Shown here: positions 2,720 to 21,875 of the stretch, piece after piece | Position numbering within the stretch: position 1 is the stretch's first letter | Layout of the letters: each line of letters starts with the position of its first letter | Source of the DNA: Flavimaribacter sediminis | Lineage (GTDB): Bacteria; Pseudomonadota; Alphaproteobacteria; Rhizobiales; Rhizobiaceae | Length of the DNA: 64,000 bases | Reading direction: 5' to 3' | Assembly: GCF_019492055.1 (NCBI RefSeq) | Contig: NZ_JAICBX010000003.1 | Coordinates: forward strand, 310,001 to 374,000 | Translations under genes and position numbers: made by a program | Notes under the pieces: model-generated | Told to the model about the DNA's origin: nothing | Database searches by the model: none | The model's input: only the letters and a program-made list of their open reading frames with translations

Positions 2720-2733
2720 TCCGGGGCCGCCGC

Positions 2734-5119: not shown

Positions 5120-5136
5120 TAATCCTCCCAAATTCT

Positions 5137-5159: not shown

Positions 5160-5169
5160 TGGAGGACCG

Positions 5170-5503
5170 ATGCAAGCCGACACGCTCATCCACATGCGTC
5201 AATTGTCGCAAGAAACTTGAAAAGACGGACGGCGTCCAAACTCCATGATAACCAAAATCTATATAAGATATTGTTTTACATAAGTTTTTATAAGTTTGGC
5301 CTCGTTTCCGCAATCAGGTTCACTTAGTCTGGCTTTGTTTCGGGAATCCACGCTTTCGCATGTCTGAATACAAATGGCGCCTCAATTACACCGCGCCTCC
5401 TTTAGCACAGAACCGCTGCAATTGCATTCTCTTTGTTCATGTTTTGTGCTTTTCGCAGTTAAAGCGCGCACGTTCAAACCGGTCCCGACGCCATGACCGC
5501 CCG
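5170..5503. other. Gene-poor, AT-richer stretch
   Basis: A + strand ATG at 5170 with a GGAGG site opens MQADTLIHMRQLSQET and then stops, so it may be the stub of a deleted regulator. Beyond it base composition falls and no frame with the local codon bias is seen up to the frameshifted minus-strand gene ending at 5504. Confidence 0.4.
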
Positions 5504-6941: not shown

Positions 6942-6957
6942 CTATCCTTTCGTATAG
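6942..6957. promoter_or_regulatory. EPS-type operator A (CTATCCTTTCGTATAG)
   Basis: CTATCCTTTCGTATAG, part of an 18-bp repeat with ACTAT/ATAGT outer arms, 78 bp before the SUOX-fold/kinase operon. It differs by one base from the reverse complement of the site upstream of the wzz-like gene (19587-19602). It is part of the shared motif described in the findings. Confidence 0.6.
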
Positions 6958-7035
6958 TTCGATAGACTTTTGGGGCGAGCGGCGACGGTCGGCTTGAGGT
7001 ATACTGGCGTAAAACCTTGCGGAGAAGGAAACGCC

Positions 7036-7554
7036 ATGAACGTCACCAGGATTGCCTCGACCATCGCCGCGTGCCTGTGGATTGCGATGTTCGCGACTGC
7101 AGGACAGGCCGCGGATCTGCCTTCTCCCGAAGGCGACGTCATCCTGACCGTGTCCGGCGAAATCGGCGTGACAAACCGTGATGGCGCCGCCGTATTCGAT
7201 CTTGAGATGCTGAAGGCAATGCCGGAAGCCTCGTTCAAAACCTCGACCATCTGGACCGAAGGCGAAAACGAGTTTCGCGGCGTGCGGCTGAGCGACCTGC
7301 TTGAGGCCGTCGACGCCAAGGGGAGCGAACTCCACGCCATCGCGCTGAACGACTACGCCGTGGATTTTCCAACCGTAGACGCCGTTCCGGATGGGCCGAT
7401 CGTCGCTTACCAGATGAATGGCAAGGAAATGTCGATTCGCGACAAGGGACCCTTATGGATTGTCTTTCCCTATGATCAGGACGCGAAATTCCGCACCGAA
7501 CTTGTTTATTCCCAGAGCATCTGGCAACTGGATCGGATAGAAATTCGAAAATAA
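7036..7554 (+). CDS. Periplasmic SUOX-fold (oxidoreductase molybdopterin-binding-like) protein
   Basis: 172 residues from the ATG at 7036, which follows a GGAGAAGG ribosome site; an upstream in-frame ATG at 6970 lacks one. A signal peptide (IASTIAACLWIAMFATAGQA) is followed by the small SUOX-like beta domain: WTEGENEFRGVRLSDLLEAV, LNDYAVDFP, GPIVAYQMNGKEMSIRDKGP, LWIVFPYD. The Cys that ligates molybdenum in true enzymes is absent, so this is probably a binding or sensory protein. It lies 11 bp from the hybrid kinase gene, which suggests it is that kinase's periplasmic partner. Confidence 0.75.
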   Translation: MNVTRIASTIAACLWIAMFATAGQAADLPSPEGDVILTVSGEIGVTNRDGAAVFDLEMLKAMPEASFKTSTIWTEGENEFRGVRLSDLLEAVDAKGSELHAIALNDYAVDFPTVDAVPDGPIVAYQMNGKEMSIRDKGPLWIVFPYDQDAKFRTELVYSQSIWQLDRIEIRK

Positions 7555-7565
7555 GGCAATCCGCT

Positions 7566-10169
7566 TTGTCAAAGAAAGCAGCGAAAGGCCTTGTAAAGCA
7601 GTCGTTCCTGAAGCGGCAGCTAAGACCTTTGTTGCTGCTTCTGATTCTTGCCATGTGTGTCACCACGCTCTCGGTGCTCGGCTCACGCATGGCGCGGGAG
7701 ATTACAAGCCTGCAATCTGCGCCGCTGGACAACATCCAGTGGAACCTCGCACAGCTCGAGATCGAATATCTGTCGCTTCTCAACAGCATCAATACCGCGC
7801 AAGACAGAGCGGGACCCGACGCATCGGTCCTTTCAGAACTTCGCAAGAGATTTGACATTTTCTACAGCCGCATCGACACGTTGCAAACCGGCAGGCCGTT
7901 TCGACAGATTGAAAATGACGACACCGCCAAACGTTTGTTGATCAAGGTTCGCTCAAGCCTGATCGAAGAGCTCCCTGTTATCGACGGAGACGACGCCGAT
8001 CTCTATGGGTCTCTCGCGGGTCTCGAAGAAGATTTTCTTCTGCTTAGACCCGATGTCAGATCTCTTTCGCTGAGAGCCGTCAAGATATTCGCAGAATCAT
8101 CCGATCGGCAGCGCGCAAATTTCTCGCTTCTGCTCCAGCAAACAGCCGTCGTCGGAGTACTTCTCGTTCTTGCCTTGCTCGTCGCGGTGACTGTTCTTGT
8201 CCGCCAGTTTCAGGTGGCCGAGCGCCGTGCGCTCGAAGCGAGCCGCAGCAGTTCCCGCTTCGTAAGCACTGTCAATGCATCGCTGGACGCTATCATACTG
8301 GCTGACGCCAAAGGAACGGTTATTGACTTCAGCCCAGCCGCTGAAACCATATTTGGCTACACTCGCAATCGCTCATTGGGCTCGAACATGGCAGAGCTGA
8401 TCATTCCTCCCAATTTGCGAGACGCCCACGCGGCGGGAATGCGTCGTTTTCTCGAGACTGGAGAAAAGAAGATCATCGACGCCGGTCGCGTCGAGGTGAC
8501 AGCCATGCGGTCCAACGGCGCGACTTTTCCTGTAGAGCTTTCCATCGGCATGACGATGGAGCCTGAGGGACCAATCTTCATTGCCTATGTCAGGGATATT
8601 TCGGAGAGAAAACGCAACCAGCAGGAACTGATGTCCGCGCGCGACGAAGCGTTGGCGGCGGACAAAGCGAAGTCGCAGTTTCTCGCAATGATGAGCCACG
8701 AAATGAGAACGCCGCTCAACGGCGTCCTGGCCACACTTGATCTTTTGCAATCATCAGCCCTGGACGGCCGGCAGGAAGATTATGTGCGCACCGCCATCGC
8801 CTCGGGTGAAATCCTGCAACAACATCTCGACGACGTGCTGGACATCACAAGCATCGAAGCGGGCGCCATGGAGTTCCGCTACAACTATTTCTCGCTGGAC
8901 GATTTGCTGGAAGAGGTGCGCAGCCTCAACGAACGCACAGCCGCCGAACAGAATGACGTAATAGTGCTGGATATCGCAGACGACCTCTCCAACATCTATT
9001 CCGACAGGCACCGACTAAGACAAATCCTGCTTAATCTTGTCGGCAATGCGGTCAAGTTCACGCAAGGCGGAACCATTACAGTCACCGCTCGATCAATCTC
9101 GAGCACTTACCACAACCGCATTGTCGAATTGACGGTAAGCGACACGGGCATTGGCATAAAACAGGAAGATATCGAACGCATTTTCGACGAGTTTGTCACC
9201 CTGGACAGTTCCTATCGGCGAAAGACGCAAGGGTACGGGCTCGGACTGGCGATCTGCCGGCGTATATCGGAAGGTCTGGGCGGTCATATCGGCATAGAAA
9301 GCACGCCAGGGGCCGGCAGCACCTTCACCGTCACCATACCGATCGCCGCGACATCGCAAATGGGCGCCGAAAGCGATGCGGAAACAGCCGAGAACAAAGA
9401 CGTAGACAATCTGAAAGTGCTGCTCGTCGAGGACAACGAGACAAATCGCTTTGTGGCGGTGGAACTGCTGCAGGCGGAAGGGTGTGATGTGGACGTCGCC
9501 ATAAACGGAATAGAAGGCGTAGAGAAGTCGCAAAATGGAGATTTCGATCTCATCCTGATGGATATCAGCATGCCGCTGATGGATGGTATTGAGGCAACCC
9601 ATGTCATCAGGAAAGGCGGCGGGAAATCCGCTACAACGCCGATCATCGGACTGACGGCCCATGCGCTGCCCCATGAACTTGAAAGCCTGACCCAGGCGGG
9701 CATGCAGGACTGCCTTATCAAACCCTTGCGGAAGCGCAATCTGCAAAAAATGCTGAGAAGTTTCAGGCAGTCGCGGGAAAGCGAAGCAGTTTCCGAAACA
9801 CCGCGCACGGCGGTGATCGACAGGTCCGTTATGGATGAGCTCGCCGAACTGTTGCCTGCTGAAAAACTGAAGCAGCGCATGGATGATTTTCTGAACGAGT
9901 TGTCCGAGTCCGAAGAGTTGCTTCAGGCTCATTTCGAGCATGGACGCTTGCCGGAACTGGCTGCTCTCGCGCATCGCTGCGCCGGATCCGCCGCAACCTT
10001 CGGCGCTACGGAACTCGCAAACGCCATGCGCGGCGTCCAGACCGCCGCACAGGAAGACCGCATCGCTGAACTTGGCGACGCCATGCGTGGCGTTGGAGCA
10101 ATTGCTGGACGGACGCGCAAGGCGCTTGAGCGCTATAAATCCGGTGCGTGCGATACGAAATCCGGTTAG
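7566..10169 (+). CDS. Hybrid sensor histidine kinase (PAS-HisKA-HATPase-REC-HPt)
   Basis: 867 residues from a TTG 11 bp after the SUOX-fold gene. TM1 is about 18-38, then an alpha-helical periplasmic domain to about 195, TM2 about 196-217 (VVGVLLVLALLVAVTVLV), and PAS about 228-350. HisKA carries MMSHEMRTPLNG with phospho-His378. HATPase has LRQILLNLVGNAVKFTQGG, DTGIGIKQEDIERIFDEF and GYGLGLAICRR. REC starts near 615 with phospho-Asp666 (LMDISMPLMDG). HPt has AHRCAGSAATFG with His803. All phosphorelay residues are present, so it can pass phosphate to a separate regulator. The LuxR-type regulator at 19645 is a candidate because the two genes share operator sites. Confidence 0.9.
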   Translation: MSKKAAKGLVKQSFLKRQLRPLLLLLILAMCVTTLSVLGSRMAREITSLQSAPLDNIQWNLAQLEIEYLSLLNSINTAQDRAGPDASVLSELRKRFDIFYSRIDTLQTGRPFRQIENDDTAKRLLIKVRSSLIEELPVIDGDDADLYGSLAGLEEDFLLLRPDVRSLSLRAVKIFAESSDRQRANFSLLLQQTAVVGVLLVLALLVAVTVLVRQFQVAERRALEASRSSSRFVSTVNASLDAIILADAKGTVIDFSPAAETIFGYTRNRSLGSNMAELIIPPNLRDAHAAGMRRFLETGEKKIIDAGRVEVTAMRSNGATFPVELSIGMTMEPEGPIFIAYVRDISERKRNQQELMSARDEALAADKAKSQFLAMMSHEMRTPLNGVLATLDLLQSSALDGRQEDYVRTAIASGEILQQHLDDVLDITSIEAGAMEFRYNYFSLDDLLEEVRSLNERTAAEQNDVIVLDIADDLSNIYSDRHRLRQILLNLVGNAVKFTQGGTITVTARSISSTYHNRIVELTVSDTGIGIKQEDIERIFDEFVTLDSSYRRKTQGYGLGLAICRRISEGLGGHIGIESTPGAGSTFTVTIPIAATSQMGAESDAETAENKDVDNLKVLLVEDNETNRFVAVELLQAEGCDVDVAINGIEGVEKSQNGDFDLILMDISMPLMDGIEATHVIRKGGGKSATTPIIGLTAHALPHELESLTQAGMQDCLIKPLRKRNLQKMLRSFRQSRESEAVSETPRTAVIDRSVMDELAELLPAEKLKQRMDDFLNELSESEELLQAHFEHGRLPELAALAHRCAGSAATFGATELANAMRGVQTAAQEDRIAELGDAMRGVGAIAGRTRKALERYKSGACDTKSG

Positions 10170-10172
10170 AAA

Positions 10173-10194
10173 GGGCCGGCGGTTGGCCCGGCCC
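10173..10194. terminator. Hairpin between convergent kinase and export-lipoprotein genes
   Basis: GGGCCGG (10173-10179) and CCGGCCC (10188-10194) form a 7-bp GC stem with an 8-base loop, between two convergent stop codons. T-rich tails are short (CCTTACTT on one side), so it may act weakly in both directions. Confidence 0.55.
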
Positions 10195-10203
10195 CTTACT
10201 TGC

Positions 10204-11445
10204 TCACAGAAGCGACAGCGTCGCGACAGGCCCGAGGACAGAGGGCAGCGTCTCGAGAACATCGGTGACCGTAGTGTAGGTCGAATCGTAGCAAGCCATG
10301 GCGTCTCCCGGCATGATGTAGGGATTGAAGTCGTCCCTGTCCGCCTGGCGCATCAGCCGCTCGACCGACCGTTCAACGACAATCGATTCTCCCGTGACAG
10401 GGTTTCTGGAAATCAGCGCGGCCGTTCTGTTGGCGTTGGTGAGCTTGGAGCCGCCAAGGCAGTTCATGCCGGCGATCGCCTGCAGAAAGCGCGTTCCATA
10501 GCGCAGATCCTGCGTCTCCTTGCCGATGGCGGCGCCGGCGTTGTTTGACGCGGAATCGGCGAGGTTCGACATGAACACCCGCACGCCCTGCATGGTGATG
10601 GAGGACGGCTTGACCAGTTCCTCCTGAAAGCAGTTGCGGCTCGGCACCTCGACCACATCCCCGGACAGAAGGATCACGTCGTTGAACGGCCGGCCATCAA
10701 GGGCGGGACGCACGTCGATGATCGTGGCGCCGCCGCCGCGAATGAGCTTGATCCGCGCGAGATCGGCGTCGGGCCGCACGCCGCCGGCGACCTGAAGGGC
10801 GCGGGACAGCCGGCGGTCTCGCGCGCCGGCGCCGCTTGCTTCCTGCCGAAGCAGATCCCTGTCCTGCGAACTCTGTCCTCCGACGGACACGGAACCGGGC
10901 TCGAACACTGCGCCCGATACGTTCACACGCGCGTCCGCTATGTCCTGCAGCCGGATAGAGACGCGTGGAACAGACCGGTAGTAGCCATTGCTCTTCAGCG
11001 TGGCGGCGAGCTCCCGCTCAACCTGTTCGACCGTGCGCCCGCTGGCGCGGACAGGCGCGACATGCGTGATCTTCAATGTGCCGTCCTGCATGATCTCGTA
11101 GCTGCCCGAGAGCAGTTCGTCTTCCTCGACAATCAAGGTCACGAGGTCGCCCTGTGACAGCAGCTGCGTATCGACCGGACCGGAATAGGATGATGTCGAG
11201 ACGACGGATGCTCCCGAACCGGTCGTGCATTTCCGGGCGTTGATCGCCACCGAGGACTGGCTTGCCGCCGATTTCCCGACGCCGTCGGAGCGATACTGGG
11301 CCTGATAGCTCAACCCCCGCGACACGTCCTCGTTGTTTTCGATCTTCGACAGGGAAGCGCATCCGCAAAGCGCGGTGGCCGACAGCAGGACAGCCAATCG
11401 CAAAGCGCTGCGGCAGGTGGCCTTACCATTTTGAAGCTTAGTCAT
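10204..11445 (-). CDS. Wza-type polysaccharide export lipoprotein
   Basis: 413 residues from the ATG at 11445 (GAGGG site 9 bases before). The frame is open upstream, but without signals. The leader RLAVLLSATALCGC puts the lipidated Cys at about residue 29. The polysaccharide export domain (about 95-190) reads LSQGDLVTLIVEEDELLSGS, YEIMQDGTLKITHVAPV, YYRSVPRVSIRLQ. SLBB-like segments follow (VNVSGAVFEPGSVSV, LSRALQVAGGVRPDADLARI). It would form the outer-membrane exit pore for exopolysaccharide. It is divergent from the flippase operon, with a shared operator-like palindrome between them. Confidence 0.9.
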   Translation of the reverse strand: MTKLQNGKATCRSALRLAVLLSATALCGCASLSKIENNEDVSRGLSYQAQYRSDGVGKSAASQSSVAINARKCTTGSGASVVSTSSYSGPVDTQLLSQGDLVTLIVEEDELLSGSYEIMQDGTLKITHVAPVRASGRTVEQVERELAATLKSNGYYRSVPRVSIRLQDIADARVNVSGAVFEPGSVSVGGQSSQDRDLLRQEASGAGARDRRLSRALQVAGGVRPDADLARIKLIRGGGATIIDVRPALDGRPFNDVILLSGDVVEVPSRNCFQEELVKPSSITMQGVRVFMSNLADSASNNAGAAIGKETQDLRYGTRFLQAIAGMNCLGGSKLTNANRTAALISRNPVTGESIVVERSVERLMRQADRDDFNPYIMPGDAMACYDSTYTTVTDVLETLPSVLGPVATLSLL

Positions 11446-11543
11446 TTCGAGACCCTCATTTAAAATGTGGGCGCTTTCTAGCGTCTCGCCGCGGCGGCGT
11501 GGGCGCAGCCTTTGGTTCGTTTCCGGAAATATCGAGACGTCGA

Positions 11544-11559
11544 CTATCCGGAAGGATAG
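11544..11559. promoter_or_regulatory. EPS-type operator B (CTATCCGGAAGGATAG)
   Basis: CTATCC-GGAA-GGATAG is a perfect dyad between the divergent export-lipoprotein and flippase genes, well placed to act on both. Its arms match the motif at 6942, 19587 and 20354. Confidence 0.6.
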
Positions 11560-11677
11560 GCGCTGGAGCCTTTGCGATATTTGACTGTTCCAACGCCGCC
11601 CCCGCCAGCGCCGCGAATTGCGTATTGAACCCTTGTCCCGGCGCAAGAGCCGCCGGCGGAAAAGGGGTTCACACATC

Positions 11678-12943
11678 ATGTTCGCCAGGATGACGACCAG
11701 AATGAACGAGGCGCGCCAGTCTCCGATGTTGCAGAACATCGGCGCCTATCTCGCGTCGGAGGCTTCCGCGAAGCTGTCGCGGATCGTCGCCGTCATCGTC
11801 ATGGCGCGCGTGCTGCAGCCTGTCGAAGTCGGCATTGTCGCAGCCGCAATGGCGACTTCCGAACTTTTGAAAGCCTTTACAGAGAACGGCGTCATCCAGC
11901 GCGTCATCAGCGCTTCCGACAGCGAACTCGAAGCAACCTGCAGAACCGCAAACCGCATCAACTGGATATGGTGTGTCGGCCTATTTGCGCTGCAACTCCT
12001 TGTGGCCGGCGGCGTTTATATTCTGTTGGGAAACGCGGCCGCCGCTCTGCTGATTGCAGTCATGGCGCTCGAATATCTCCTGATGCCGCCCGGCCTCGTC
12101 CACTGCGGCCTTGCAATGCGCGACGGCAAACTCAAGGGAACGGCATTCGTCGCCGGCGCCCAGACAGTTTCCGCCAACCTGTTATCGGCCGTGCTCCTGA
12201 TCGTCTGGTACTCGCCCGCCACGATCGCCCTGGCAAGGGTAGCGAGCGCGCCGATATGGACGTCGGGGATGCGCTATCTGCATCCCTGGCGTCCGACTGC
12301 CGGCCCGCGCGCGCCGCTGACGCCGTTTCTGCGATTCGGACGCTCCGTGGTCGGCGTGGAACTCGTCAAGGCGCTGCGTATGCAGTCCGACAAGTTCCTG
12401 ATCGGCGGCCTGCTCGGCGCAGACGCGCTCGGCTTCTATTATTTTGCTGTCAACGCCGGCCTCGGCATCGCCAATTCCTTCTCGGTGGCGTTCGCGACCG
12501 TGCTGTTTCCGCACTTCCGCAACAGTAGCAGCCGCGACGCCGTGCTGCGATCCGGCCTTTTGCTGGCGCTGTTTGCCGTGACGCCGGTCGTCGCCATGCA
12601 GGCGCTGGCCGCTCCCGTCTACGTGCCGCTGATTTTCGGCGACAAATGGGCGCCTGTCGCGCCGCTGGTGTCACTGCTTTGTTTCCTCGCCATTCCCTCC
12701 GTCATCTGGGCGACGACCGCGCAATGGTTTCGCGCCATCGATCGCGCGGATATCGAACTGCGCCGCTCCGTCGTGATTTTTCTCGCGGCATCGGGGGCCA
12801 TCGTGACGGCCTATCCGTTTGGTCTGACCGGCGTCGCCTGGGCGCTGATGCTCGCCACCGGCCTGACCCAGATTGCACTTTCGCTTCCTGCCTTTTCGGC
12901 AGCCTTCGCGCGCCCTGCGCGCGCTCTCAACCCCGCAGCCTAG
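11678..12943 (+). CDS. Wzx-type polysaccharide flippase
   Basis: 421 residues from the ATG at 11678; an upstream in-frame ATG adds 20 Arg-rich residues with no ribosome site. It is a polytopic membrane protein of the PST/MATE-like class. The N-terminal signature ASEASAKLSRIVAVIVMARV...VGIVAAAMATSELLKAF is typical of exopolysaccharide flippases. About 12 hydrophobic segments follow (such as LVAGGVYILLGNAAAALLIA and LLVSLLCFLAIPSVIWAT-like stretches). It should flip the lipid-linked repeat unit across the inner membrane. First gene of a four-gene operon with three glycosyltransferases (gap 9 bp to the next). Confidence 0.88.
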   Translation: MFARMTTRMNEARQSPMLQNIGAYLASEASAKLSRIVAVIVMARVLQPVEVGIVAAAMATSELLKAFTENGVIQRVISASDSELEATCRTANRINWIWCVGLFALQLLVAGGVYILLGNAAAALLIAVMALEYLLMPPGLVHCGLAMRDGKLKGTAFVAGAQTVSANLLSAVLLIVWYSPATIALARVASAPIWTSGMRYLHPWRPTAGPRAPLTPFLRFGRSVVGVELVKALRMQSDKFLIGGLLGADALGFYYFAVNAGLGIANSFSVAFATVLFPHFRNSSSRDAVLRSGLLLALFAVTPVVAMQALAAPVYVPLIFGDKWAPVAPLVSLLCFLAIPSVIWATTAQWFRAIDRADIELRRSVVIFLAASGAIVTAYPFGLTGVAWALMLATGLTQIALSLPAFSAAFARPARALNPAA

Positions 12944-12952
12944 GAGGTTTCC

Positions 12953-13891
12953 ATGCCGCTCTTCTCAGTCATTATGCCGTGCTGGAACGCACAAAAGACA
13001 ATCGCGGACACAATTGAATCGGTTCTCTGCCAGAGCTTCGGCGATTTCGAACTGATCATCGTGGACGACGGTTCGACCGACGACACAAGCAACATCGTCG
13101 CCCGCTATGCGTCCGTCGATCGCCGCGTTCGCGTCGTTGAACTCGAAAACGGCGGCCCCAGCCGCGCCCGTAATATCGCGGCCTTCGTCTACGCGACGGG
13201 CAGCCTCCTGGCTTTCCTCGACAGCGACGATATCTGGGCGCCAGAAAAGCTTCTGCGCATGGCTGAAACCTTCCGCCGTCGCGGCGCGGCGGACGCCGTC
13301 TATGCACGCATAGCCTTTTTCCGCAACACGATCGATGTGGTCGAAACCGAATCGACGCCTATGGGCGGACCGCTGACGGCCGGCGACCTGATCCGTGAAA
13401 ACGCGGTCTGCACCATGTCCAACATCGTGGTTCGCGCCGACATCTTCGAACAGTCCGGCGGCTTCGACACGTCGCTCAAATATGGCGAGGACATGGAGTG
13501 GCTGATCCGGCTGGTCGGTCAGGGCGCGCGCATCGAGGCCGTGGACGAACGGCTCGTCTATTACCGCGCCTGCGACCACGGGCTTTCCGCGGATCTCTCA
13601 TCCATGGAAGCCAACTGGAAAGCATCGGTCGCCACGGCGCTGGCGCACGATCCGCGGATCGGGGCAAGCGACGTCAGAAAGGCCGAAGCCGTGCATCTGC
13701 GCTACCTCGCGCGCCGGGCTTTGCGCCTGAAGACGCCTCCGCTTGCAGCACTTGGCCTTGCCCTGCGCGGCGCCGGCCGGAGCCCGTCCGCCTTTTTTGA
13801 AAACCCGCGGCGCGGCGTCATGACGCTGATGGCCGCCCTCGCCAACCCGCTGATGCCGTCCGCCGTCAGGCGCATGGTCTTCTATCGCTGA
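12953..13891 (+). CDS. Glycosyltransferase family 2 (first)
   Basis: 312 residues with a GGAGG ribosome site. The GT-A fold starts FSVIMPCWNAQKTIADTIES, then ELIIVDDGSTDDTSNIVARY (nucleotide-sugar binding) and LLAFLDSDDIWAPEKLLRMA (D-x-D-like metal site). The acceptor-side motif KYGEDMEWLIRL has the catalytic ED. No membrane segments, so it is cytoplasmic or peripheral. It should add one sugar to the lipid-linked repeat unit. Donor and linkage cannot be read from sequence. Confidence 0.9.
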   Translation: MPLFSVIMPCWNAQKTIADTIESVLCQSFGDFELIIVDDGSTDDTSNIVARYASVDRRVRVVELENGGPSRARNIAAFVYATGSLLAFLDSDDIWAPEKLLRMAETFRRRGAADAVYARIAFFRNTIDVVETESTPMGGPLTAGDLIRENAVCTMSNIVVRADIFEQSGGFDTSLKYGEDMEWLIRLVGQGARIEAVDERLVYYRACDHGLSADLSSMEANWKASVATALAHDPRIGASDVRKAEAVHLRYLARRALRLKTPPLAALGLALRGAGRSPSAFFENPRRGVMTLMAALANPLMPSAVRRMVFYR

Positions 13892-13915
13892 TCCATTCCG
13901 AAGGGAGTACGACCC

Positions 13916-14911
13916 ATGACCCAATATCCTGTCACCGCCTCGATCGTCGTTCCGGCCTATAATTGCGAAACGATGATCGCCGAGACGCTGCGCTCTCTGC
14001 TCGAGCAGACCTTCGCCGATTTCGAGCTTATTGTCGTCGACGACGGCTCGAGCGACGGCACCGTCGACGTCGTCAATTCATTCGACGATCCGCGCCTCAG
14101 GCTGGTTCGTCAGGCCAATCGCGGCCTGGCCGGCGCCCACAACACGGGCGTTCACGAAGCACGCGGCGAGTTCATTGGGTTCTGCGACGCCGACGATCTG
14201 TGGTTACCCGAAAAGCTGGAGAAACATGTCGCGCATCTGCGCTCCAACCCTCAGGTCGGGATCAGCTTCGCCGGCTCGCGAATGATCGACGAAAACGGAA
14301 AGCCGCTCGGCATAGACCAAAAGCCGAAGCTGAGGAACATCACGGCGATCGATGTCTTCAAACGCAACCCGATCGGCAACGGATCGTCGGCCGTCATTCG
14401 CGCCGCCGCCCTTGAGGGCTTCGCCTACCGGCCGGCCGGCGAGACGGAACGCGACTGGTGGTTCGACGAGACCTTCCGCCAGTCGGACGACATCGAGGGC
14501 TGGCTTCGCTTCATCGTCACGCAGGACTGGGTGATCGAAGGCATTCCGGGCCTCTTGACCGACTACCGGATCCATTGCTCCGGCCTTTCCAGCAATATCG
14601 AGCGGCAGTTCGAATCCTGGGACCGCATGCGCAAGAAGGTGATTGCAATCGCGCCGGCGCTTCTCGGGAAGCAGGACCGCGTCGCGGAAGCCTACCAGCT
14701 GCGTTACCTGTGCCGCAGGGCCGTATCGCTGCGCGACGGCGATGTTGCTTTCGATCTGTGCGTCCGATCCATGGGCAAGTCCCTGCGCCCCTTCGTTGAA
14801 GAGCCCGTCAAGTCTCTGATCACCCTCGGCGCCGCCGTCGCGCTCAAACTCTTTGGCGACGGGCTGCTGGGCGCCGCCGAATCCATCCTGCTGCGCAGGA
14901 AACTCGCATAA
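13916..14911 (+). CDS. Glycosyltransferase family 2 (second)
   Basis: 331 residues following GAAGGGAG. It is related to the preceding gene, suggesting an old duplication: TASIVVPAYNCETMIAETLR, FELIVVDDGSSDGTVDVVNS, IGFCDADDLWLPEKLEKHVA. The catalytic region reads FRQSDDIEGWLRFI. The C-terminal 50 residues are hydrophobic and basic and may touch the membrane. Third gene of the flippase operon, 24 bp after its neighbour. Confidence 0.9.
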   Translation: MTQYPVTASIVVPAYNCETMIAETLRSLLEQTFADFELIVVDDGSSDGTVDVVNSFDDPRLRLVRQANRGLAGAHNTGVHEARGEFIGFCDADDLWLPEKLEKHVAHLRSNPQVGISFAGSRMIDENGKPLGIDQKPKLRNITAIDVFKRNPIGNGSSAVIRAAALEGFAYRPAGETERDWWFDETFRQSDDIEGWLRFIVTQDWVIEGIPGLLTDYRIHCSGLSSNIERQFESWDRMRKKVIAIAPALLGKQDRVAEAYQLRYLCRRAVSLRDGDVAFDLCVRSMGKSLRPFVEEPVKSLITLGAAVALKLFGDGLLGAAESILLRRKLA

Positions 14912-14929
14912 TTGAAAGGGAGAAGACCA

Positions 14930-15940
14930 ATGATCAATGCAATCACCCATATCGTTGATGACGACAGTTTCGGCGGCGTCAACCGGATGCTCGCGCACAT
15001 GACGAACAGCCCTGTTCTTTACAAGGCCGGACAGCATCGCATCGTGCGGGTCCGGCGCGGGCAGTTCACCCCGCCGAAGATCAAGGCCGACATCATCGTG
15101 TCGCACCTGTCCGTCAACTGGGCGAACATGCCCATGCTGACGGCGATCCGGGCGATCCATCCGCGCACGGCGTTCATCCATGTGGAGCACAGCTACAGCG
15201 AACGCTTCGTGACGGCGAATGTCGAGAACCGGTGGCGTTTCGAAACGCTGCTTGAAACAGCCTATTCCCTGTTCGACACGGTGGTGGCGGTGAGCCGTCC
15301 GCAGTTCGACTGGATGCTGCGCCGGCAGCTGTGCAACCCGAAGCGTCTGCGATACGTGCCGTCCGGCGTCGATCTGGCGCCGTTCTTCGCGCTTGATGCG
15401 CCGGCAGAGGATCGCCCGTTCGTGCTTGGCGCCTTCGGCCGCCTCAACGTCCAGAAGGGTTTTGACATCCTCGTCAAGGGCTTCAACCTCTCGGGACGCC
15501 AGGACATGGAGCTTCACTTCTTCGGCGACGGCGAAGAACGCGCGGCGCTCGAGACGCTGGCCGCAGGCAAACCGAACATCGTGTTCCACGGCTATGTCGA
15601 GAACACGGCGGAAGCGATGGCGCGGTGCCATGCGGTCGCAATGCCGTCGCGCTGGGAGCCATTCGGCCTTGTCGCGCTCGAAACCATGGCGGCGGGCCGG
15701 CCGCTGCTGTGTCCGCGCGTCGACGGATTGCGTCAGCATATCTCGAACGGCGCGATCGACATCGGCGACAACACGGTCGCCGGATGGAGCGCCTTTCTGC
15801 AGGAACTGGACCTCGCGGCGATGCGCGACGGCGAAAAGAACAGAAGCGTCGCCGCGTCCACGACAGACAACTTCCTGGAAGGCTGGCTGGATCTGTGCAA
15901 TGCCGGCGACCGGGAGGAAACCATCGCGCTGGCCGCCTGA
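14930..15940 (+). CDS. Glycosyltransferase family 4 (GT-B)
   Basis: 336 residues from the ATG at 14930, after AAAGGGAGAAGA. The N-terminal half has the Rossmann-like acceptor domain (ITHIVDDDSFGGVNRMLAHM), and the middle has VVAVSRPQFDWML. The GT1/GT4 C-terminal domain has FVLGAFGRLNVQKGFDILVK, ELHFFGDGEERAALE, IVFHGYVENTAEAMARCHAV and the E-x7-E motif in SRWEPFGLVALETMAAGRP. A retaining transferase of the repeat-unit pathway and last gene of the operon, followed by a terminator. Confidence 0.9.
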   Translation: MINAITHIVDDDSFGGVNRMLAHMTNSPVLYKAGQHRIVRVRRGQFTPPKIKADIIVSHLSVNWANMPMLTAIRAIHPRTAFIHVEHSYSERFVTANVENRWRFETLLETAYSLFDTVVAVSRPQFDWMLRRQLCNPKRLRYVPSGVDLAPFFALDAPAEDRPFVLGAFGRLNVQKGFDILVKGFNLSGRQDMELHFFGDGEERAALETLAAGKPNIVFHGYVENTAEAMARCHAVAMPSRWEPFGLVALETMAAGRPLLCPRVDGLRQHISNGAIDIGDNTVAGWSAFLQELDLAAMRDGEKNRSVAASTTDNFLEGWLDLCNAGDREETIALAA

Positions 15941-15959
15941 CACATCAGAAATTTCCGGG

Positions 15960-15988
15960 AGGCCGGTCCGTCAAGGGCCGGCCTTTTT
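15960..15988 (+). terminator. Rho-independent terminator of the flippase/glycosyltransferase operon
   Basis: AGGCCGG (15960-15966) pairs with CCGGCCT (15978-15984), followed by TTTT. It lies 20 bp after the last glycosyltransferase stop codon. Confidence 0.8.
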
Positions 15989-16004
15989 GTTTCCAAAATC
16001 CGAG

Positions 16005-16406
16005 CTAGCCCGGAAGCCCGTCGAGGCAGGGAACATCGGCGAAGCCGTCGTCCCAATCAGCTCTGCTTTCACAACAGATATGGGCGTTCGGCCGGATGTC
16101 GACTTCAGTGTCGAGACCGCCGGCGGGGACCACCAGCAAGCCGCGCTTCTCGGTCGGGACGGCGGAACCACACCGGCCGCAAAAACTCTTTTGGTGACGA
16201 GATTCCGGAACCCTGTAGCTTCGGACGTCATCGCGGCCGGCGATCCACCTGATCGTCGCCGTCGAGGAAAACAGATTGGCCGCATGGGCAGTGCCCGTGC
16301 CTTTGCGGCAGCGTTTGCAATGGCACAGGAAAAAGGCGTCGAACGCGCCGGTGATTTCGTACTGGACGTCGCCGCACAAGCACGAACCGGCAGTAAATTG
16401 AGACAT
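16005..16406 (-). CDS. GFA/CENP-V family zinc protein
   Basis: 133 residues with the full zinc-ligand set of the GFA fold: SCLCGDVQYEITG (CxC), CHCKRCRKGTG (CxCxxC) and FCGRCGSAVPT (CxxC). Length is normal. The founding member was described as a glutathione-dependent formaldehyde-activating enzyme, but most members have no proven reaction. It sits inside the polysaccharide locus on the opposite strand from the operon to its left, with a broken RidA fragment upstream, so it is probably a passenger. Confidence 0.85.
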   Translation of the reverse strand: MSQFTAGSCLCGDVQYEITGAFDAFFLCHCKRCRKGTGTAHAANLFSSTATIRWIAGRDDVRSYRVPESRHQKSFCGRCGSAVPTEKRGLLVVPAGGLDTEVDIRPNAHICCESRADWDDGFADVPCLDGLPG

Positions 16407-16440
16407 GGAGCGGGATCCTTTCGGCGGTTCGGGGGACTAG

Positions 16441-16617
16441 TCACCCCAGCCTGAAATTATCGCATCCGCCTCGAATTCGACAAGCCATTCCGGATTGACG
16501 AACCGGTCTATGGCCATGATCGTATCCACCGGACGAATGTCCCTGAAATAGATCTTGCGCACGTCAATTGCGGCTTTCCAGTTGTTGATGTCCGTGAGGA
16601 TCACGCGCGTCCGCACA
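16441..16617 (-). pseudogene. C-terminal fragment of a RidA (YjgF) family gene
   Basis: The frame ends at TGA 16441-16443 and reads VRTRVILTDINNWKAAIDV, then IYFRDIRPVDTIMAIDRF and VNPEWLVEFEADAIIS. This matches the C-terminal half of RidA enamine/imine deaminases, including the V-x-Arg-V-F/I-L-T-D-I region. The N-terminal 50-70 residues are missing: homology ends about where the polymerase gene stops (16632), and an in-frame TGA lies just upstream. A deletion joining two loci is the simplest reading. Confidence 0.7.
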
Positions 16618-16631
16618 TGGGGAGTGAAGAA

Positions 16632-17939
16632 TCAGGACGCCGCGGTCAAACCTTGCGGCGCGGACAATGCTTCGGCAGCGGAAAGCCTGTCACGGGCGAT
16701 CTGCCTCGCGTGAACGCCAAGCACCATGAAGGATGGCCAGATCAGATAGGCCTCGATCTCGATGTTCTCGCCGAAAGTCAGCATGATCATGACGAGCGTG
16801 ATCGAAAGCGGCAGGCGGCCGCGGCTGTGGAAAAGGCAATCGTGCACAACGGCGGCGGTTTGCCAGACCAGCGGAATGGCGAAGGCCAGCAGTCCCGCGA
16901 CACCCTTCACGAAGAGCAGGCCATACCAGGTGTGGTGGCTGCCGATCGGCATATATTCCACCAGATGCGGACCGGGTTGGACCGTTCCATGGCCGAACCA
17001 GACGGCTTCTGTGGACCAGCGCTCATAGGCAATCCTCTGCAGGGTCGACCGCACTTCGGAACTTGCCGCGCGGGCGCCGCGGAAGGCGTCTACGGCCTGC
17101 TGGATCATGCGGAACAGGGCCGAGCCGAAGACCGTCATCAGGCCCATCAGCGCTGCTGCGAGAAACCAGGCGAAGGGGCGCGAGGCCAACGGAAGCAATC
17201 GCGGCAAGGCAATGCTGACTGGCAGCGCCACAAGGCTCATTCTCGACATGGACAAAAGGATCATGGTGAGCCCGCCGAGGACGCCGACCAGCATCCAGAA
17301 ACGCTGGCGTTCGTCGAGAGCGAAGGCAACGGTCAAAACGCCGATAAGACCGGCGAAGGGCGACCAGGGCGCAAAGAACTGCCAGCGCGCGGAGCCGGAC
17401 GCGGGGTCGATCGTGTAAAGATAGACGCTGAAATATTCCGGTCCCGGCCCGCCGATTGCCTTCAGCGGCGAGACGAAGATCATGCTCGGCAATCCGGCCA
17501 TGGGCGCAACGATGAACAAAGGCGTCAAAACCACCGTTATCAGCGCAACGACGCACATGGCCCTGACGATGACGGATCGGCGGATCGGCAAGGTCGCTCC
17601 GGCGAAGATGAAGAGCGCGACGAGCGCCCAGCCCTTGGCCCAGCCTACGACCGACTTGATCGTCTGCCCCATGCCGAGATCCCAGCCTGCGTGGGCGATG
17701 AGCAGCGGAACCAGCATGGCGACCATGCCCGCAATCCAGCCAAGCACCAGAGGCGGCGGCGATCCTGTCGGCCGCAGATCGGCCCGGATCGCGTTTCCGA
17801 GATAGAGGGAAAGCCCGGCAAGTCCTGCAAGAAGCCAGCCGATAACCGGCCCCACGACATACAGGCCCCCGATGAGGTAGAAGAGCCATGTCGAGGCGAT
17901 TGTTGCAAAGACCAGTTTCTCGGCCGGGTTTTTCTGCAT
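16632..17939 (-). CDS. O-antigen ligase/polymerase-like membrane protein (Wzy or WaaL type)
   Basis: 435 residues with about 12 hydrophobic segments (LIGGLYVVGPVIGWLLAGLAGLSLYLG and similar). A large periplasmic loop contains RWSTEAVWFGHGTVQPGPHL and GSHHTWYGLLFVKGVAGLLA, the PF04932 signature with its key His. It should polymerise or ligate the repeat units at the periplasmic face. The start is 3 bp after the stop of the Wzz-like gene, so the two are co-transcribed. Confidence 0.85.
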   Translation of the reverse strand: MQKNPAEKLVFATIASTWLFYLIGGLYVVGPVIGWLLAGLAGLSLYLGNAIRADLRPTGSPPPLVLGWIAGMVAMLVPLLIAHAGWDLGMGQTIKSVVGWAKGWALVALFIFAGATLPIRRSVIVRAMCVVALITVVLTPLFIVAPMAGLPSMIFVSPLKAIGGPGPEYFSVYLYTIDPASGSARWQFFAPWSPFAGLIGVLTVAFALDERQRFWMLVGVLGGLTMILLSMSRMSLVALPVSIALPRLLPLASRPFAWFLAAALMGLMTVFGSALFRMIQQAVDAFRGARAASSEVRSTLQRIAYERWSTEAVWFGHGTVQPGPHLVEYMPIGSHHTWYGLLFVKGVAGLLAFAIPLVWQTAAVVHDCLFHSRGRLPLSITLVMIMLTFGENIEIEAYLIWPSFMVLGVHARQIARDRLSAAEALSAPQGLTAAS

Positions 17940-17942
17940 GCC

Positions 17943-19496
17943 TCAGTCCTCTTCCCCGGCAGGCCGCGCCGTGATCCATGCGATCAGCGGCTGCCGTATC
18001 CAGAAGAGAACAAGCCCGCCGATCGCGCACAGGGTGGCGGCGATTCCAAACAGGATCGCCAGCAGCGTGTTGGGGCTGCTCGGGCTTTCCGAATAGGTCG
18101 GCGCCTCGATGATCTGCACCATCGGATAGGAGGCGAACACGTCGGTCTCGAAGGTGTTCGAGCGCGCCAGCGCCGACGCAAAGACGGCTTCGGCGACCTT
18201 GTAGTCCCGGTTGAGGCTGTCGAGTTCCGAGGCTGCGCTGAGCAGCGAGATCAGACGCTTTTCGACGACCTGCAACTCGTCCTCGAGAATGGCCAGCTCT
18301 GCTTCCAGCCCGTCGCGTTCGGCGGTTCCGTCCATCAACTGCGAGAGCAGCGAGGCGCGCTGGCCTTCCGTGGAATGTTCGATCTCGTTCTGCAGCGTTT
18401 CCACGCCAAGACCCGTGAGTATGGCGCCGCGCTCCATCAGTTTGAGACGCGCGCCCAGAACGCGCTTTCGGAGGCTGACGATGTTGGGATGCTTGTCGCC
18501 GAGGCTCTGGCTGAGTTCGGCGAGTTTGGCGGTTTCTTCCGCAAGCGCGTTCAACAGGGTCTGGAATCCGACATCGGCGTGCAGACGAAGGGACGCGGCC
18601 GCGTTTTCGGGCGAGATGTCGAGCAGTGTCGCAAGGGACTCGACCAATCTCGACTGGCGCGCGTGCTGCCCCTTGAGATCGGTCATCTTCTTGACGAGTT
18701 CTTCCTTGGCGACGGCGATCTCCTGGAACTGGTCGGCTGTCGTCAATCCTGACTCCATCTGGAGCTTGCTGATGCGGTTCCTGATCTGGTCGACGGCTTC
18801 CTGATACTGTTTCACGCTGCCCACCGTGGAGCCCTGCCGGCGTTCGATCTCGTCCTGCCGCAATTTTTCCAGTTCGGCGAGAAAGGCGCTCAACAGCGCG
18901 TCTGCATATTGGCGCGCGGTTTCGGGAGACGTCGCTTCCATCATGACCTGTATAAGGCTCGTCTGGTCGACCAGCTTGATGCGCGGATAACCGATCCGGA
19001 CGCCTTGCTGCAGGAGCATTTCTTCGGCGCGTTTGATGACGGATTGCGACTGCAGCAGTTTTTTGTAGGTGACGGTCGGGCTGATGGATGAACTCGAATA
19101 GGCCGAGTTGGCCGACGTGGAGGCCTGCCCGATATCGGTGAGGTTGACGGAGGTTGAAACGCCGTTGCCGGGCAGGATGAGCGAGAAATCGGAGCTGTAC
19201 CTGACCTCCGCCAGATTGAGATAGAGAAACACGGGAACCCAGATCGCGGCCGTCAGGACGCCGATGACCGTGACATAGCGCGGAAGCCGTCCGGCGTCGC
19301 TGACCCGTCCGCCGCGCATGATCCGGCCAATCGTAAGGGAGCCGAAAGACGTGCGTTTCAGGCGGAGCCAGCCGGGCGCGCGAAATATCTTGCGCCGGCG
19401 CGCCGAGACATCGCTTCCGCGCTGCCTGGCTTCGCCAGTATCCACAATTTCGATCGGCTCCGTTTCAAGAACCGGATGGTCAACATGAATGTTCAT
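17943..19496 (-). CDS. Wzz/GumC-type chain-length determinant
   Basis: 517 residues. TM1 is about 93-115 (VTVIGVLTAAIWVPVFLYLN) and a C-terminal TM about 482-505 (TLLAILFGIAATLCAIGGLVLF). The periplasmic part is a long coiled coil (about 200-440, with repeated heptads such as LAELSQSLGDKHPNIVSLRK). The family PSSP-like motif before TM2 appears as ESPSSPN. There is no cytoplasmic tyrosine-kinase domain and no separate kinase gene in view. The first 90 residues are an Arg-rich cytoplasmic tail. It sets chain length together with the downstream polymerase. Confidence 0.88.
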   Translation of the reverse strand: MNIHVDHPVLETEPIEIVDTGEARQRGSDVSARRRKIFRAPGWLRLKRTSFGSLTIGRIMRGGRVSDAGRLPRYVTVIGVLTAAIWVPVFLYLNLAEVRYSSDFSLILPGNGVSTSVNLTDIGQASTSANSAYSSSSISPTVTYKKLLQSQSVIKRAEEMLLQQGVRIGYPRIKLVDQTSLIQVMMEATSPETARQYADALLSAFLAELEKLRQDEIERRQGSTVGSVKQYQEAVDQIRNRISKLQMESGLTTADQFQEIAVAKEELVKKMTDLKGQHARQSRLVESLATLLDISPENAAASLRLHADVGFQTLLNALAEETAKLAELSQSLGDKHPNIVSLRKRVLGARLKLMERGAILTGLGVETLQNEIEHSTEGQRASLLSQLMDGTAERDGLEAELAILEDELQVVEKRLISLLSAASELDSLNRDYKVAEAVFASALARSNTFETDVFASYPMVQIIEAPTYSESPSSPNTLLAILFGIAATLCAIGGLVLFWIRQPLIAWITARPAGEED

Positions 19497-19586
19497 CTTT
19501 CAACCCCGTGTTACGGGGGGTGTAGAGGAACAGCGACGGGTTGCGTGGCGGCGAAGGGATAGTATCGGGGAACTGAGATAGGTCAG

Positions 19587-19602
19587 CTATACCAAAGGAT
19601 AG
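19587..19602. promoter_or_regulatory. EPS-type operator C (CTATACCAAAGGATAG)
   Basis: CTATACCAAAGGATAG lies 91 bp upstream of the Wzz-like gene. Its reverse complement differs from site A (6942-6957) at a single position. Confidence 0.6.
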
Positions 19603-19644
19603 AAATGGCGGCCTTCAGCATCCGGCTTGTTCAGTATGAACGCT

Positions 19645-20268
19645 CTAGAACAGACCAGCTTCCTTGGCGAGGATGGCGGCGTTGGTCCGGTTGCGCGCGC
19701 CCATCTTGCGGCAAAGCGTCTTGACGTGCAGCTTGATCGTGACTTCCTGCAAATCAAGTCTCAAAGCGATTTCCTTGTTGGAAAGACCTTCAACGAGACC
19801 TTCAAGCACTTCCAGTTCGCGCGATGACAGTTTCTCTGCGAGCGGGTGTTTTTGTTCCTCTTCCTTCTCCGTGAAAAAGGAAATCGGCGCATATTGCTCC
19901 CCGGTCGCCATGAAGCGTACGGCGTGGATCAGCGATTTCGCCGTCATCGTTTTCGGAAGGAAGCCGGCCGCGCCCATGGCGAGCGCCTGTTCGGCGGCCG
20001 CCCGTGTCATTGTGCCTGAAATAATGGCGACGGGACTGCCCAGATTGAGATCTTTGGCTTTCTCCAGCCCCTCAAGACCGTTCATGCCGGGCATGGTGAA
20101 ATCGAGAATGACGAGGTCATAGGGGCCCTCTTTCAACATCCTTGTTTCCGCTTCCGCGAAATCCTTCGCAACGGAAACGGAGAACCCGTCCTGCGCCGCC
20201 AGATAGTCGGATATCATGTCACGAACCAGATCGTGGTCGTCCGCAAGCAGCAGTTTCAGTTTTTGCAT
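19645..20268 (-). CDS. LuxR/NarL-type response regulator
   Basis: 207 residues. The receiver domain (about 4-118) has LLLADDHDLVRDMISDYLA with acidic pocket, phospho-Asp56 in VILDFTMPGMNG, and Thr/Lys switch residues (ISGTM, LPKTM). The HTH domain (about 140-205) reads LSSRELEVLEGLVEGLSNKE, IALRLDLQEVTIKLHVKTL. It lies between the Wzz-like and WecG-fusion genes, each preceded by copies of the CTATMC-N4-GKATAG motif. It is therefore the leading candidate to bind that motif, including in its own promoter. Confidence 0.9.
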   Translation of the reverse strand: MQKLKLLLADDHDLVRDMISDYLAAQDGFSVSVAKDFAEAETRMLKEGPYDLVILDFTMPGMNGLEGLEKAKDLNLGSPVAIISGTMTRAAAEQALAMGAAGFLPKTMTAKSLIHAVRFMATGEQYAPISFFTEKEEEQKHPLAEKLSSRELEVLEGLVEGLSNKEIALRLDLQEVTIKLHVKTLCRKMGARNRTNAAILAKEAGLF

Positions 20269-20353
20269 CGCCTTGATCTCCGGCCGTGATTCGGCGGCGT
20301 CCTATCCATCGCCGGCGCTGGCCGTCACTCTCGCTCCCAGAGCGCCGAACCTT

Positions 20354-20412
20354 GTATCCTTTGGTGCAGCGCCAATAGTCTTCAGTACAACCGACACTAT
20401 ACCGCAGTAAAT
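20354..20412. promoter_or_regulatory. EPS-type operator pair D (degenerate)
   Basis: GTATCCTTTGGTGCAG (20354-20369) keeps the core TATCCTTTGGT of sites A and C. A weaker copy, CTATACCGCAGTAAAT (20397-20412), follows 43 bp later. Both lie in the 239-bp divergent gap between the response regulator and the fused transferase gene. Confidence 0.45.
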
Positions 20413-20507: not shown

Positions 20508-21875
20508 ATGACACAGACACAACCGCTCGACACCATCAATTTGTTCGGTCTGGACATCGTATCGGCCACGACGCGCGATGCTTTGGACAGGCTTTTAAAC
20601 AGCGACGAACGTTACACCGCCGCCTTCCTCAACGCGCACTGCGTCAACACGGCCGCCAGCGACCGGACCTATCGACGGGCGCTGGAAAAAGCCGACTTTA
20701 TTCTACCCGACGGTTCCGGGCTCAGTCTGGCCGCGCGGATGCAGGGCAAGCGTTTTGTGGAAAACCTCAACGGAACGGACCTGTTTTTGCCACTGTGCCG
20801 CGAGGCCGCAAAACGCGGGCTGTCGATCTACTTTCTGGGCAGCAGGGAAAATATTGCGCGCATCGCGGCTCTGCGGGCGTCCGCGCTCGCGCCTGGTCTG
20901 GTTATCGCCGGCACGCGAAACGGCTTTTTCGAGCGGGATGAGGAACACGCGATCGTGGACGAGATCAACGCGTCCGGCGCCGACATCGTTCTGGTCGCGC
21001 TTGGCGTGCCGCTTCAGGAAATCTGGATCGAGCGTAATCGCGAGCGCCTTGCCGCGTCTCTCGTCATGGGTGTGGGCGCACAGTTCGACTTCTGGTCCGG
21101 AGAGGTGCGCCGCGCGCCGATGCTCTTCAGGAAAACCGGAATGGAGTGGCTCTGGCGCCTGGCGCTGGAGCCGAAGCGCATGGCGCGCCGCTATATCAGG
21201 GGCAATCCGGAATTTATACTGAGGGCCTGGCGCGACAGAAATCCGGAGGCCAGTTCGGCCGATGGCCCGGTGAAAGGCCCGGTAAAGGGGAAGCGCCTGC
21301 TTGACCTCCTCGTGGCGAGCGCGGCTATCATCGCCCTGTCGCCCGCCATAGGCGCCATCGCCGCCGCCATCCGTCTCACATCGCCGGGGCCGGTGTTCTT
21401 TCGGCAGGAACGCGTGGGCCTTCGAGGCAAGACATTCACGCTCTACAAGTTCCGCACCATGTGCGTGGACGCAGAACAACAGCGCGCCGCCGTGCTGGCA
21501 ATGAGCGACCGTCCCGGCCTGTGCTTCAAGGCGAAAGACGATCCGCGCATCACGCCGGTCGGCCGGTTCCTGCGCCGCTATTCGCTGGACGAGCTTCCAC
21601 AGCTTTTCAATGTGGTTCTCAGCCAGATGAGCATTGTCGGACCGCGCCCGGCCTTGCCCCAGGAGGTCGCGGCCTATCCAGGCGACGCGCTGCGCCGGCT
21701 CGACGTCAAGCCGGGCCTGACCGGGCTTTGGCAGGTGTCGGGCCGCGCCGACATCGGCTTCGACCGCATGATCGAGATGGACAGCGCCTACGCCCGGTCC
21801 AGAACGCTGCTTCTCGATCTCACGATCATGGCGCTGACCCTTCGGGCGGTTTTGTCGGGACGCGGGAGTTACTGA
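20508..21875 (+). CDS. Fused WecG/TagA-type glycosyltransferase and undecaprenyl-phosphate sugar transferase
   Basis: 455 residues with a GATAAAGGAGA ribosome site. Residues about 1-240 are a WecG/TagA/CpsF (GT26) domain: LNAHCVNTAA, ADFILPDGSGLSLAARMQGK, FLGSRENIARIAAL, LVALGVPLQEIWIERNRERL, GVGAQFDFWSGEVRRAP. After a short repetitive linker (GPVKGPVKGK), residues about 262-455 are a bacterial sugar transferase: one TM, SPGPVFFRQERVGLRGKTFT, LYKFRTM, LDELPQLFNVV, MSIVGPRPALPQEV, KPGLTGLWQVSGR. One protein may thus start the lipid-linked unit and add a further sugar. Confidence 0.92.
   Translation: MTQTQPLDTINLFGLDIVSATTRDALDRLLNSDERYTAAFLNAHCVNTAASDRTYRRALEKADFILPDGSGLSLAARMQGKRFVENLNGTDLFLPLCREAAKRGLSIYFLGSRENIARIAALRASALAPGLVIAGTRNGFFERDEEHAIVDEINASGADIVLVALGVPLQEIWIERNRERLAASLVMGVGAQFDFWSGEVRRAPMLFRKTGMEWLWRLALEPKRMARRYIRGNPEFILRAWRDRNPEASSADGPVKGPVKGKRLLDLLVASAAIIALSPAIGAIAAAIRLTSPGPVFFRQERVGLRGKTFTLYKFRTMCVDAEQQRAAVLAMSDRPGLCFKAKDDPRITPVGRFLRRYSLDELPQLFNVVLSQMSIVGPRPALPQEVAAYPGDALRRLDVKPGLTGLWQVSGRADIGFDRMIEMDSAYARSRTLLLDLTIMALTLRAVLSGRGSY

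Follow-up and report, generated by a model that had tools for sequence, protein, structure and literature searches.

The window considered here is a 64,000-nucleotide stretch of Flavimaribacter sediminis DNA (contig NZ_JAICBX010000003.1, positions 310,001 to 374,000), and the coordinates given below are counted from its first letter. It carries genes for a predicted pterin sensor and its neighboring kinase, for a response regulator, and for a Wzx/Wzy-type polysaccharide, arranged as follows.

7036-7554, plus strand: PruR-like periplasmic SUOX-fold protein of 172 aa (Pfam Oxidored_molyb; matches to PDB 7kos and 7rkb)
7566-10169, plus strand: predicted DTB-type hybrid kinase (TM, periplasmic domain with WX7E, TM, PAS, HisKA, HATPase, receiver, HPt)
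10204-11445, minus strand: polysaccharide export lipoprotein, Wza type (Pfam Poly_export)
11678-12943, plus strand: flippase, Wzx type (Pfam Polysacc_synt_3; an ATG start was chosen in an ORF that opens at 11618)
12953-13891, plus strand: glycosyltransferase family 2
13916-14911, plus strand: glycosyltransferase family 2, used as the locus marker
14912-15940, plus strand: glycosyltransferase (Pfam Glyco_trans_1_4 / Glycos_transf_1)
16632-17939, minus strand: polytopic membrane protein with 10 hydrophobic segments (simple scan)
17943-19496, minus strand: Wzz-like chain-length determinant (TIGR03007, E 9.4e-18, 63.7 bits, under the cut-off of 278.85)
19645-20268, minus strand: NarL/FixJ-type response regulator with a GerE domain (predicted phospho-acceptor Asp56; candidate dyad binder)
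20508-21875, plus strand: fused WecG/TagA/CpsF glycosyltransferase and Bac_transf sugar transferase

The Wza, Wzx, and Bac_transf parts of the polysaccharide locus were recognized by Pfam, and the Wzz match is weak. The product of 16632-17939 matches no Pfam or NCBIfam family and is the probable polymerase (Wzy), as judged from its place and hydropathy. The WecG/TagA/CpsF domain and the Bac_transf priming transferase are fused in one 455-aa protein, which has long matches in several related loci. A plus-strand frame of 711 aa (16617-18752) would make a mechanical ORF list misleading, and we rejected it as a gene because it has no family match and overlaps the minus-strand genes at 16632-17939 and 17943-19496. 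Matches to this shadow frame and to another at 15393-16454 were excluded from all site assignments.

A sequence-only reading of the window had recognized the SUOX fold of the 7036-7554 protein and overlooked its resemblance to PruR, by which it is a predicted pterin sensor. Residues 25-168 match the ‘Pterin Binding Protein’ structures 7kos (E 8.8e-34) and 7rkb (E 1.9e-34), the first of which is identified as PruR in a passage of a review (PMC13259868). In the sequence alignment, a Trp replaces the Moco-binding Cys and the pterin-site Tyr is present; the NDY and W of the solved chain 7rkb align to the same letters. The sole Cys is residue 13 and lies in the N-terminal leader, which by eye ends AGQA and in which no segment passed the threshold of a simple hydropathy scan. 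The protein is encoded by a single-copy gene, as judged from a search of the source genome at E ≤ 0.001.

The kinase gene (7566-10169) follows pruR directly. Its product has hydrophobic segments at residues 22-40 and 194-212, between which lies a WX7E motif (W59-x7-E67), and its best NCBIfam match is TorS at 347.9 bits, below the cut-off of 676.5. By its predicted features, the pair is therefore a PruR-DTB system, composed of a pterin-binding PruR and a DcpA-type hybrid kinase, where the call of a DcpA-type periplasmic domain is based on WX7E and the two spans. The likeness to such systems, which passages of the review describe as PruR paired with a DcpA-TorS-BaeS-type kinase (PMC13259868), includes a PruR-like protein of ~170 aa with the Trp and with Cys only in the N-terminal leader, and a gene placed directly before a two-span kinase with WX7E between the spans.

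The regulator (19645-20268) combines the Pfam domains Response_reg and GerE and is thus a NarL/FixJ response regulator. Its D10, D11, D56, and K106 are invariant in 19 aligned regulator sequences. Among the named NCBIfam response regulators, NarL matches best (110.6 bits versus a cut-off of 250), and no family reaches its cut-off for this protein among the matches listed (25 of 95 families).

Five sites associated with a 16-bp dyad, CTATMC-N4-GKATAG, had been reported in the sequence-only reading, and all five sequences were found at the positions it gave. Distances are from the site centre to the start codon, and scores are from the matrix described below.

6942-6957: candidate operator A, CTATCCTTTCGTATAG, 24.75 bits, centre 86 bp before pruR
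11544-11559: candidate operator B, CTATCCGGAAGGATAG, 23.19 bits, between the divergent wza (107 bp) and wzx (about 126 bp)
19587-19602: candidate operator C, CTATACCAAAGGATAG, 24.57 bits, 99 bp before the Wzz-like gene
20354-20369: degenerate site D, GTATCCTTTGGTGCAG, 4.1 bits, 94 bp before the regulator gene and 146 bp before the wecG-type gene
20397-20412: degenerate site E, CTATACCGCAGTAAAT

The sites at 6942, 11544, and 19587 are the three exact matches in the window, and, as that reading had also noted, A and C differ by a single base in reverse complement. When the whole 5.69-Mb genome was scanned, as the reading had proposed, these same three exact matches were recovered, each intergenic and each at the polysaccharide locus, compared to none for the reversed control pattern. 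The exact 16-bp word is private to this locus within the source genome. With up to two mismatches, the window holds 9 matches compared to 2.11 ± 1.49 in shuffled sequence, and none of 100 shuffles reached 9. Elsewhere in the genome there are 10 more copies with one mismatch. These are scattered and all fall inside ORFs by our simple ORF call, which leaves a genome-wide regulon unsupported. With as many as two mismatches allowed, the genome has fewer forward matches (232) than matches to the backwards control (537), and therefore nothing is claimed from them.

The distribution of the regulator was then compared with that of the dyad. Among 61 genomes (the source and 60 relatives), regulator orthologues are present in four, at 100, 94, 65, and 56% identity (E 4e-65 or better), and the next-best match falls to 37% identity (E 5e-31). 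All four orthologue-bearing genomes have an exact dyad within 14 kb of the regulator gene. In a larger sample of 397 genomes of the order, 16 are regulator positive at E ≤ 1e-35. An exact dyad occurs in 9 of these 16 compared to 57 of the 381 other genomes (P = 2.5e-4, a value that overstates independence because the loci are related), and 7 of the 16 have no exact dyad. The nine motif-bearing, regulator-positive genomes hold 13 exact sites, 10 of which are within 13.5 kb of the regulator gene; each of the remaining three is far away or on a different contig, and one of them is in an assembly of 760 contigs. At 57% identity or more, the polysaccharide marker was found in nine of the 397 genomes, all nine of them regulator positive. 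The backwards control pattern also matches many genomes of this sample. Genomes of one genus (code g108) that have no regulator match carry the recurrent sequences CTATACTGGGGTATAG and CTATACCTTAGTATAG, which possibly represent a different operator family.

To extend the comparison, a scan with the regulator alignment yielded 545 confirmed stretches, and the best 80 were retained with regulator sequence as the sole selection criterion. This set includes 65 loci from Rhodobacterales, 11 from Hyphomicrobiales, 1 from Caulobacterales, 2 that are unplaced, and 1 titled Oceanobacillus. The last record (L090) belongs by title to the Bacillota and carries a whole alphaproteobacterial-type locus; it is probably mislabelled or contaminated. 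Because of kinship among the 80 loci, a few of which share a genome, P values computed from them overstate independence.

We counted de novo all hexamer half-sites at spacings of 0-12 (53,248 dyads) in these best 80 of 545 loci, and CTATCC-N4-GGATAG ranks first, with 18 occurrences compared to 0.04 expected. The second entry, CATGCC-N-GGCATG, was rejected because by eye it is coding sequence for the receiver motif MPGM. The pattern from the window has 46 matches in 30 of the 80 loci. When 179 permuted patterns were counted, two that overlap the dyad gave 19 (CTATCM) and 18 (MTATCC) matches, and the other 177 gave at most 4 each. By order, the exact pattern is present in 8 of the 11 Hyphomicrobiales loci and 21 of the 65 Rhodobacterales loci among these best 80. 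The promoter comparison across relatives that the sequence-only reading had recommended thus finds the dyad conserved beside regulator orthologues, and the apparent conservation of the operator in another order was overlooked in that reading.

Of the 46 sites in the best 80 of 545 loci, 41 are followed within 400 bp by a gene for a sensor, a regulator, matrix production, or secretion, and none lies within a compared homologue. Two sites touch an ORF end by our own ORF call (L077:18122 and L103:5320). Sites precede pruR, wza/wzx, wzz-like, and wecG-type genes, and in Rhodobacterales they also precede genes for FIST sensors and synthase-type polysaccharides. The spacer was free in the query, and 29 of the 46 sites have NAAA or the complementary sequence there; outside the 16 bp, the bases carry little information.

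A scoring matrix was then built from 91 sites with at most one mismatch. Sites of at least 16 bits number 104 in 53 of the best 80 of 545 loci, compared to 5 when the same loci are read backwards; because the matrix was trained on sites from these loci, this count is partly circular, which does not apply to the exact-pattern count. All 23 loci with a recognized matrix block in this set (10 Wzx/Wzy type and 13 synthase type) hold a site of at least 16 bits. No such site was found in 27 of the 80. The 27 include some short contigs (a length below 15 kb applies to 21 loci of the whole set), but also 15 of the 34 PruR loci that have no recognized matrix block and the full-length loci L099, L102, L135, and L138.

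These comparisons bear on the individual sites of the window, all five of which the sequence-only reading had placed in promoter gaps. The divergent wza/wzx gap has an exact dyad in three other loci (L070, L071, and L072), as at operator B. By matrix score, the degenerate pair is not above background, since within the window site 20397 ranks 8th and site 20354 ranks 15th. At about the same place as 20354, good or exact sites precede the wecG-type gene in L075, L078, L087, L090, L106, and L124, and no dyad with one mismatch or fewer was found in the corresponding gap of L069, L070, L071, and L072. In a same-genus genome (G002, 79% complete), the shape of 20354 is partly kept (GTATACTTTAGTGCAG) and that of 20397 is decayed (CTATAGCGGAGAAAAT). 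Site 20354 is therefore weak but plausible as an operator candidate by position, whereas site 20397 is probably not an operator.

We also examined whether operator letters vary with the recognition region of the regulator. Six regulators that carry HIKTLYRK instead of HVKTLCRK form one strongly supported branch of the regulator tree. Operator position 4 is C in at least one arm in all 8 sites of this clade compared to 12 of 77 sites elsewhere, in a search that permitted C at this position and with a clade that was chosen after seeing the sequences. Operator letters that change with recognition letters would be expected from a change of the binder itself, and this may be a single event. Regulators with LAEV...HVRT letters (L060, L061, L064, L066, and L102) have no dyad, and by eye no clear substitute was seen within 300 bp on either side; two of these loci, L066 and L102, seem to represent a single genome.

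The regulator and dyad are accompanied by variable sensor and matrix modules. In the fetched flanks of the best 80 of 545 loci, PruR is present in 41, a FIST-domain protein in 15, both in none, and neither in 24 (P = 3.8e-6 for mutual exclusion, with kinship left in). Matrix blocks of the Wzx/Wzy type (10 loci) and the synthase type (13 loci) likewise never occur together in this set. The synthase-type block consists of a GT2 synthase and an HlyD-like protein, to which L103 adds a nucleotide-sugar dehydrogenase and ManC. Within the same 80 loci, PruR is found with the Wzx/Wzy type in 2 and with the synthase type in 3, and FIST in 3 and 6, respectively. A WX7E-type word was found in 25 of the 41 PruR loci and not in the other 16, perhaps partly for lack of a good start; an earlier count had given absence in 16 of 40, where one of the 24 matches was spurious because it spans a stop.

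On the regulator tree as drawn, the sensor changes at least 8 times, although the strongly supported branches require no more than 1 of these changes, and the matrix type changes twice. Repeated sensor swapping is thus likely but not proven. Some Rhodobacterales loci have a FIST-domain protein and a PAS hybrid kinase as their front end, a combination that resembles NosP-NahK nitric-oxide systems. However, two FIST proteins scored 31.9 and 25.7 bits, far below the NosP cut-off of 450, so these two do not qualify as NosP. One FIST-type locus (L103) encodes an RTX-repeat protein and a type I secretion pair (10640-13201 and 2238-5329), and an exact dyad stands at the start of the pair.

The genome G002 appears to provide a natural deletion of the polysaccharide block. 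It retains PruR, the kinase, the regulator (94% identity), and operator A, which is the same letter for letter. At the same place, the wza-to-wzz block is absent and the fused transferase is reduced to remnants, and no counterparts of operators B and C were found in the corresponding stretch. The replacement gene (L046 13055-15636 region) is HfaB/CsgG-like, with 147.6 bits under an HfaB cut-off of 300, and a variant palindrome, ATATACTTCGGTATAT, lies about 155 bp before it.

Because the dyad recurs beside the same regulator gene in many bacteria of the class, it is probably that regulator's landing site. More specifically, we consider it highly probable that CTATMC-NWWN-GKATAG is the operator of the 19645-20268 regulator, fed by a PruR-kinase relay and controlling both sensor and matrix genes. 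In this mechanism, the predicted periplasmic ligand of PruR (7036-7554) is a small pterin, and the loaded protein would signal to the neighboring DTB kinase through that kinase's periplasmic domain. Phosphate would pass along a His-Asp-His(HPt) path to Asp56 of the regulator, which would occupy the 6-N4-6 dyad as a dimer, about 86-127 bp upstream of start codons. Both the operon of its sensor and the Wzx/Wzy-type polysaccharide genes would thereby come under the regulator's control, and activation is our guess for the sign of this control. We infer the binding, the relay, the pterin ligand, and the sign; the HPt relay in particular is suggested by the anatomy of the kinase (HisKA, HATPase, receiver, HPt) and by its neighborhood (PruR in 41 of the best 80 of 545 loci). 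The assignment of the dyad to this LuxR-type regulator, already made in the sequence-only reading, gains support from the enrichment at regulator loci, from the 10 of 13 sites near the regulator, and from the clade-linked operator letters. The further proposal of that reading, by which the system governs both its sensor and the sugar-chain genes, agrees with the four promoter gaps, three of which have a strong site and one a weak site.

Several alternatives were weighed against this explanation. If another, unlinked regulator bound the dyad and the response regulator were a mere neighbor, exact matches in the 57 of 381 genomes without the regulator, including the recurrent sequences of one genus, would be accounted for, and the backwards control matches many genomes too. 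We regard this as very unlikely, because the dyad tops the count at loci chosen by their regulator although the sensors and matrix genes vary between these loci, because the marker (at least 57% identity) occurs in 9 of 397 genomes that are all regulator positive, and because one clade shows altered operator letters together with an altered recognition region. A chance origin, or a dispersed palindromic repeat that is not an operator, can be practically dismissed: each site is just 16 bp long, but there are 3 exact copies genome-wide, and the word recurs in regulator loci with nearly uninformative flanking bases (best 80 of 545).

Other alternatives retain the regulator as the binder and differ in its input or its effect. 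The regulator could be phosphorylated by a different kinase, with the PruR-DTB pair only a target and not an input, as the operator before the sensor operon itself might suggest; moreover, 24 of the best 80 of 545 loci have neither PruR nor FIST in the fetched flanks. This seems improbable given that one or the other sensor (41 and 15 loci, never both) flanks the regulator in 56 of these 80 and that the HPt domain of the kinase suits a relay. Regarding the sign of control, the operator centres are 86-127 bp before start codons, as measured to the start codon itself, and this is a usual place for activator sites, which argues against the regulator being a repressor of the matrix genes. In favor of repression, which we consider less likely, the pterin-PruR branch of Agrobacterium is described in passages of the review as limiting attachment and biofilm formation (PMC13259868).

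Our preferred explanation, in which the regulator is fed by PruR and the DTB kinase, adds to what those passages say of related systems. PruR-DTB kinases are described there as widespread, no target genes or output are named for them in these passages, and the term ‘Response regulator’ occurs 0 times in the main text (PMC13259868). What is new here is a predicted output for such kinases, composed of the regulator, its operator, and polysaccharide target genes. A related system is PruR-DcpA of Agrobacterium tumefaciens, where, according to the same passages, a pterin-binding PruR likewise controls a membrane partner and surface polysaccharide (PMC13259868); DcpA acts via c-di-GMP, whereas here a hybrid kinase takes the place of DcpA and the output is predicted to be transcriptional.

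The locus supplies a directly testable regulator, operator, and set of target genes for PruR-DTB kinases, and the dyad probably ties a predicted pterin sensor to matrix (slime) polysaccharide production. With more reserve, we lean toward a broader reading in which one regulator with a nearly fixed operator code would govern matrix production in two alphaproteobacterial orders, Hyphomicrobiales and Rhodobacterales, while the front end (PruR or FIST) and the output (Wzx/Wzy or synthase) are exchanged, and in which the PruR form would be a predicted c-di-GMP-free, pterin-to-matrix transcriptional route. Such an exchange, if it holds, would be a clear example of modules being rewired around a constant operator. 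The 16-bp word itself may help to locate matrix genes in other genomes.

A comparable operator shape is known from ComA of Bacillus subtilis, a response regulator whose DNA-binding fold we take to be of the LuxR/NarL type. Passages of one study describe this domain as a tetrahelical HTH, compare it with NarL, and report that the hexamer-N4-hexamer spacing of its inverted repeat is optimal, the same 6-N4-6 shape as here; ComA differs in sequence (TTGCGG), kinase, and targets, and it also uses direct repeats (PMC4797271). VarR of Nautella was rejected as the same regulator because the passages on it describe an autoinducer-binding domain. Among the matches listed (titles and abstract starts), there was no paper on the regulator or the 16-bp word, which is a weak absence because subscription literature is mostly outside the search. 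Finally, another intergenic palindrome, ATATACATTTGTATAA, lies at 24805-24820 between genes for a class II aldolase and a 2-hydroxyacid dehydrogenase; it is identical in G002 (L046:19842) and is perhaps the operator of another regulator.
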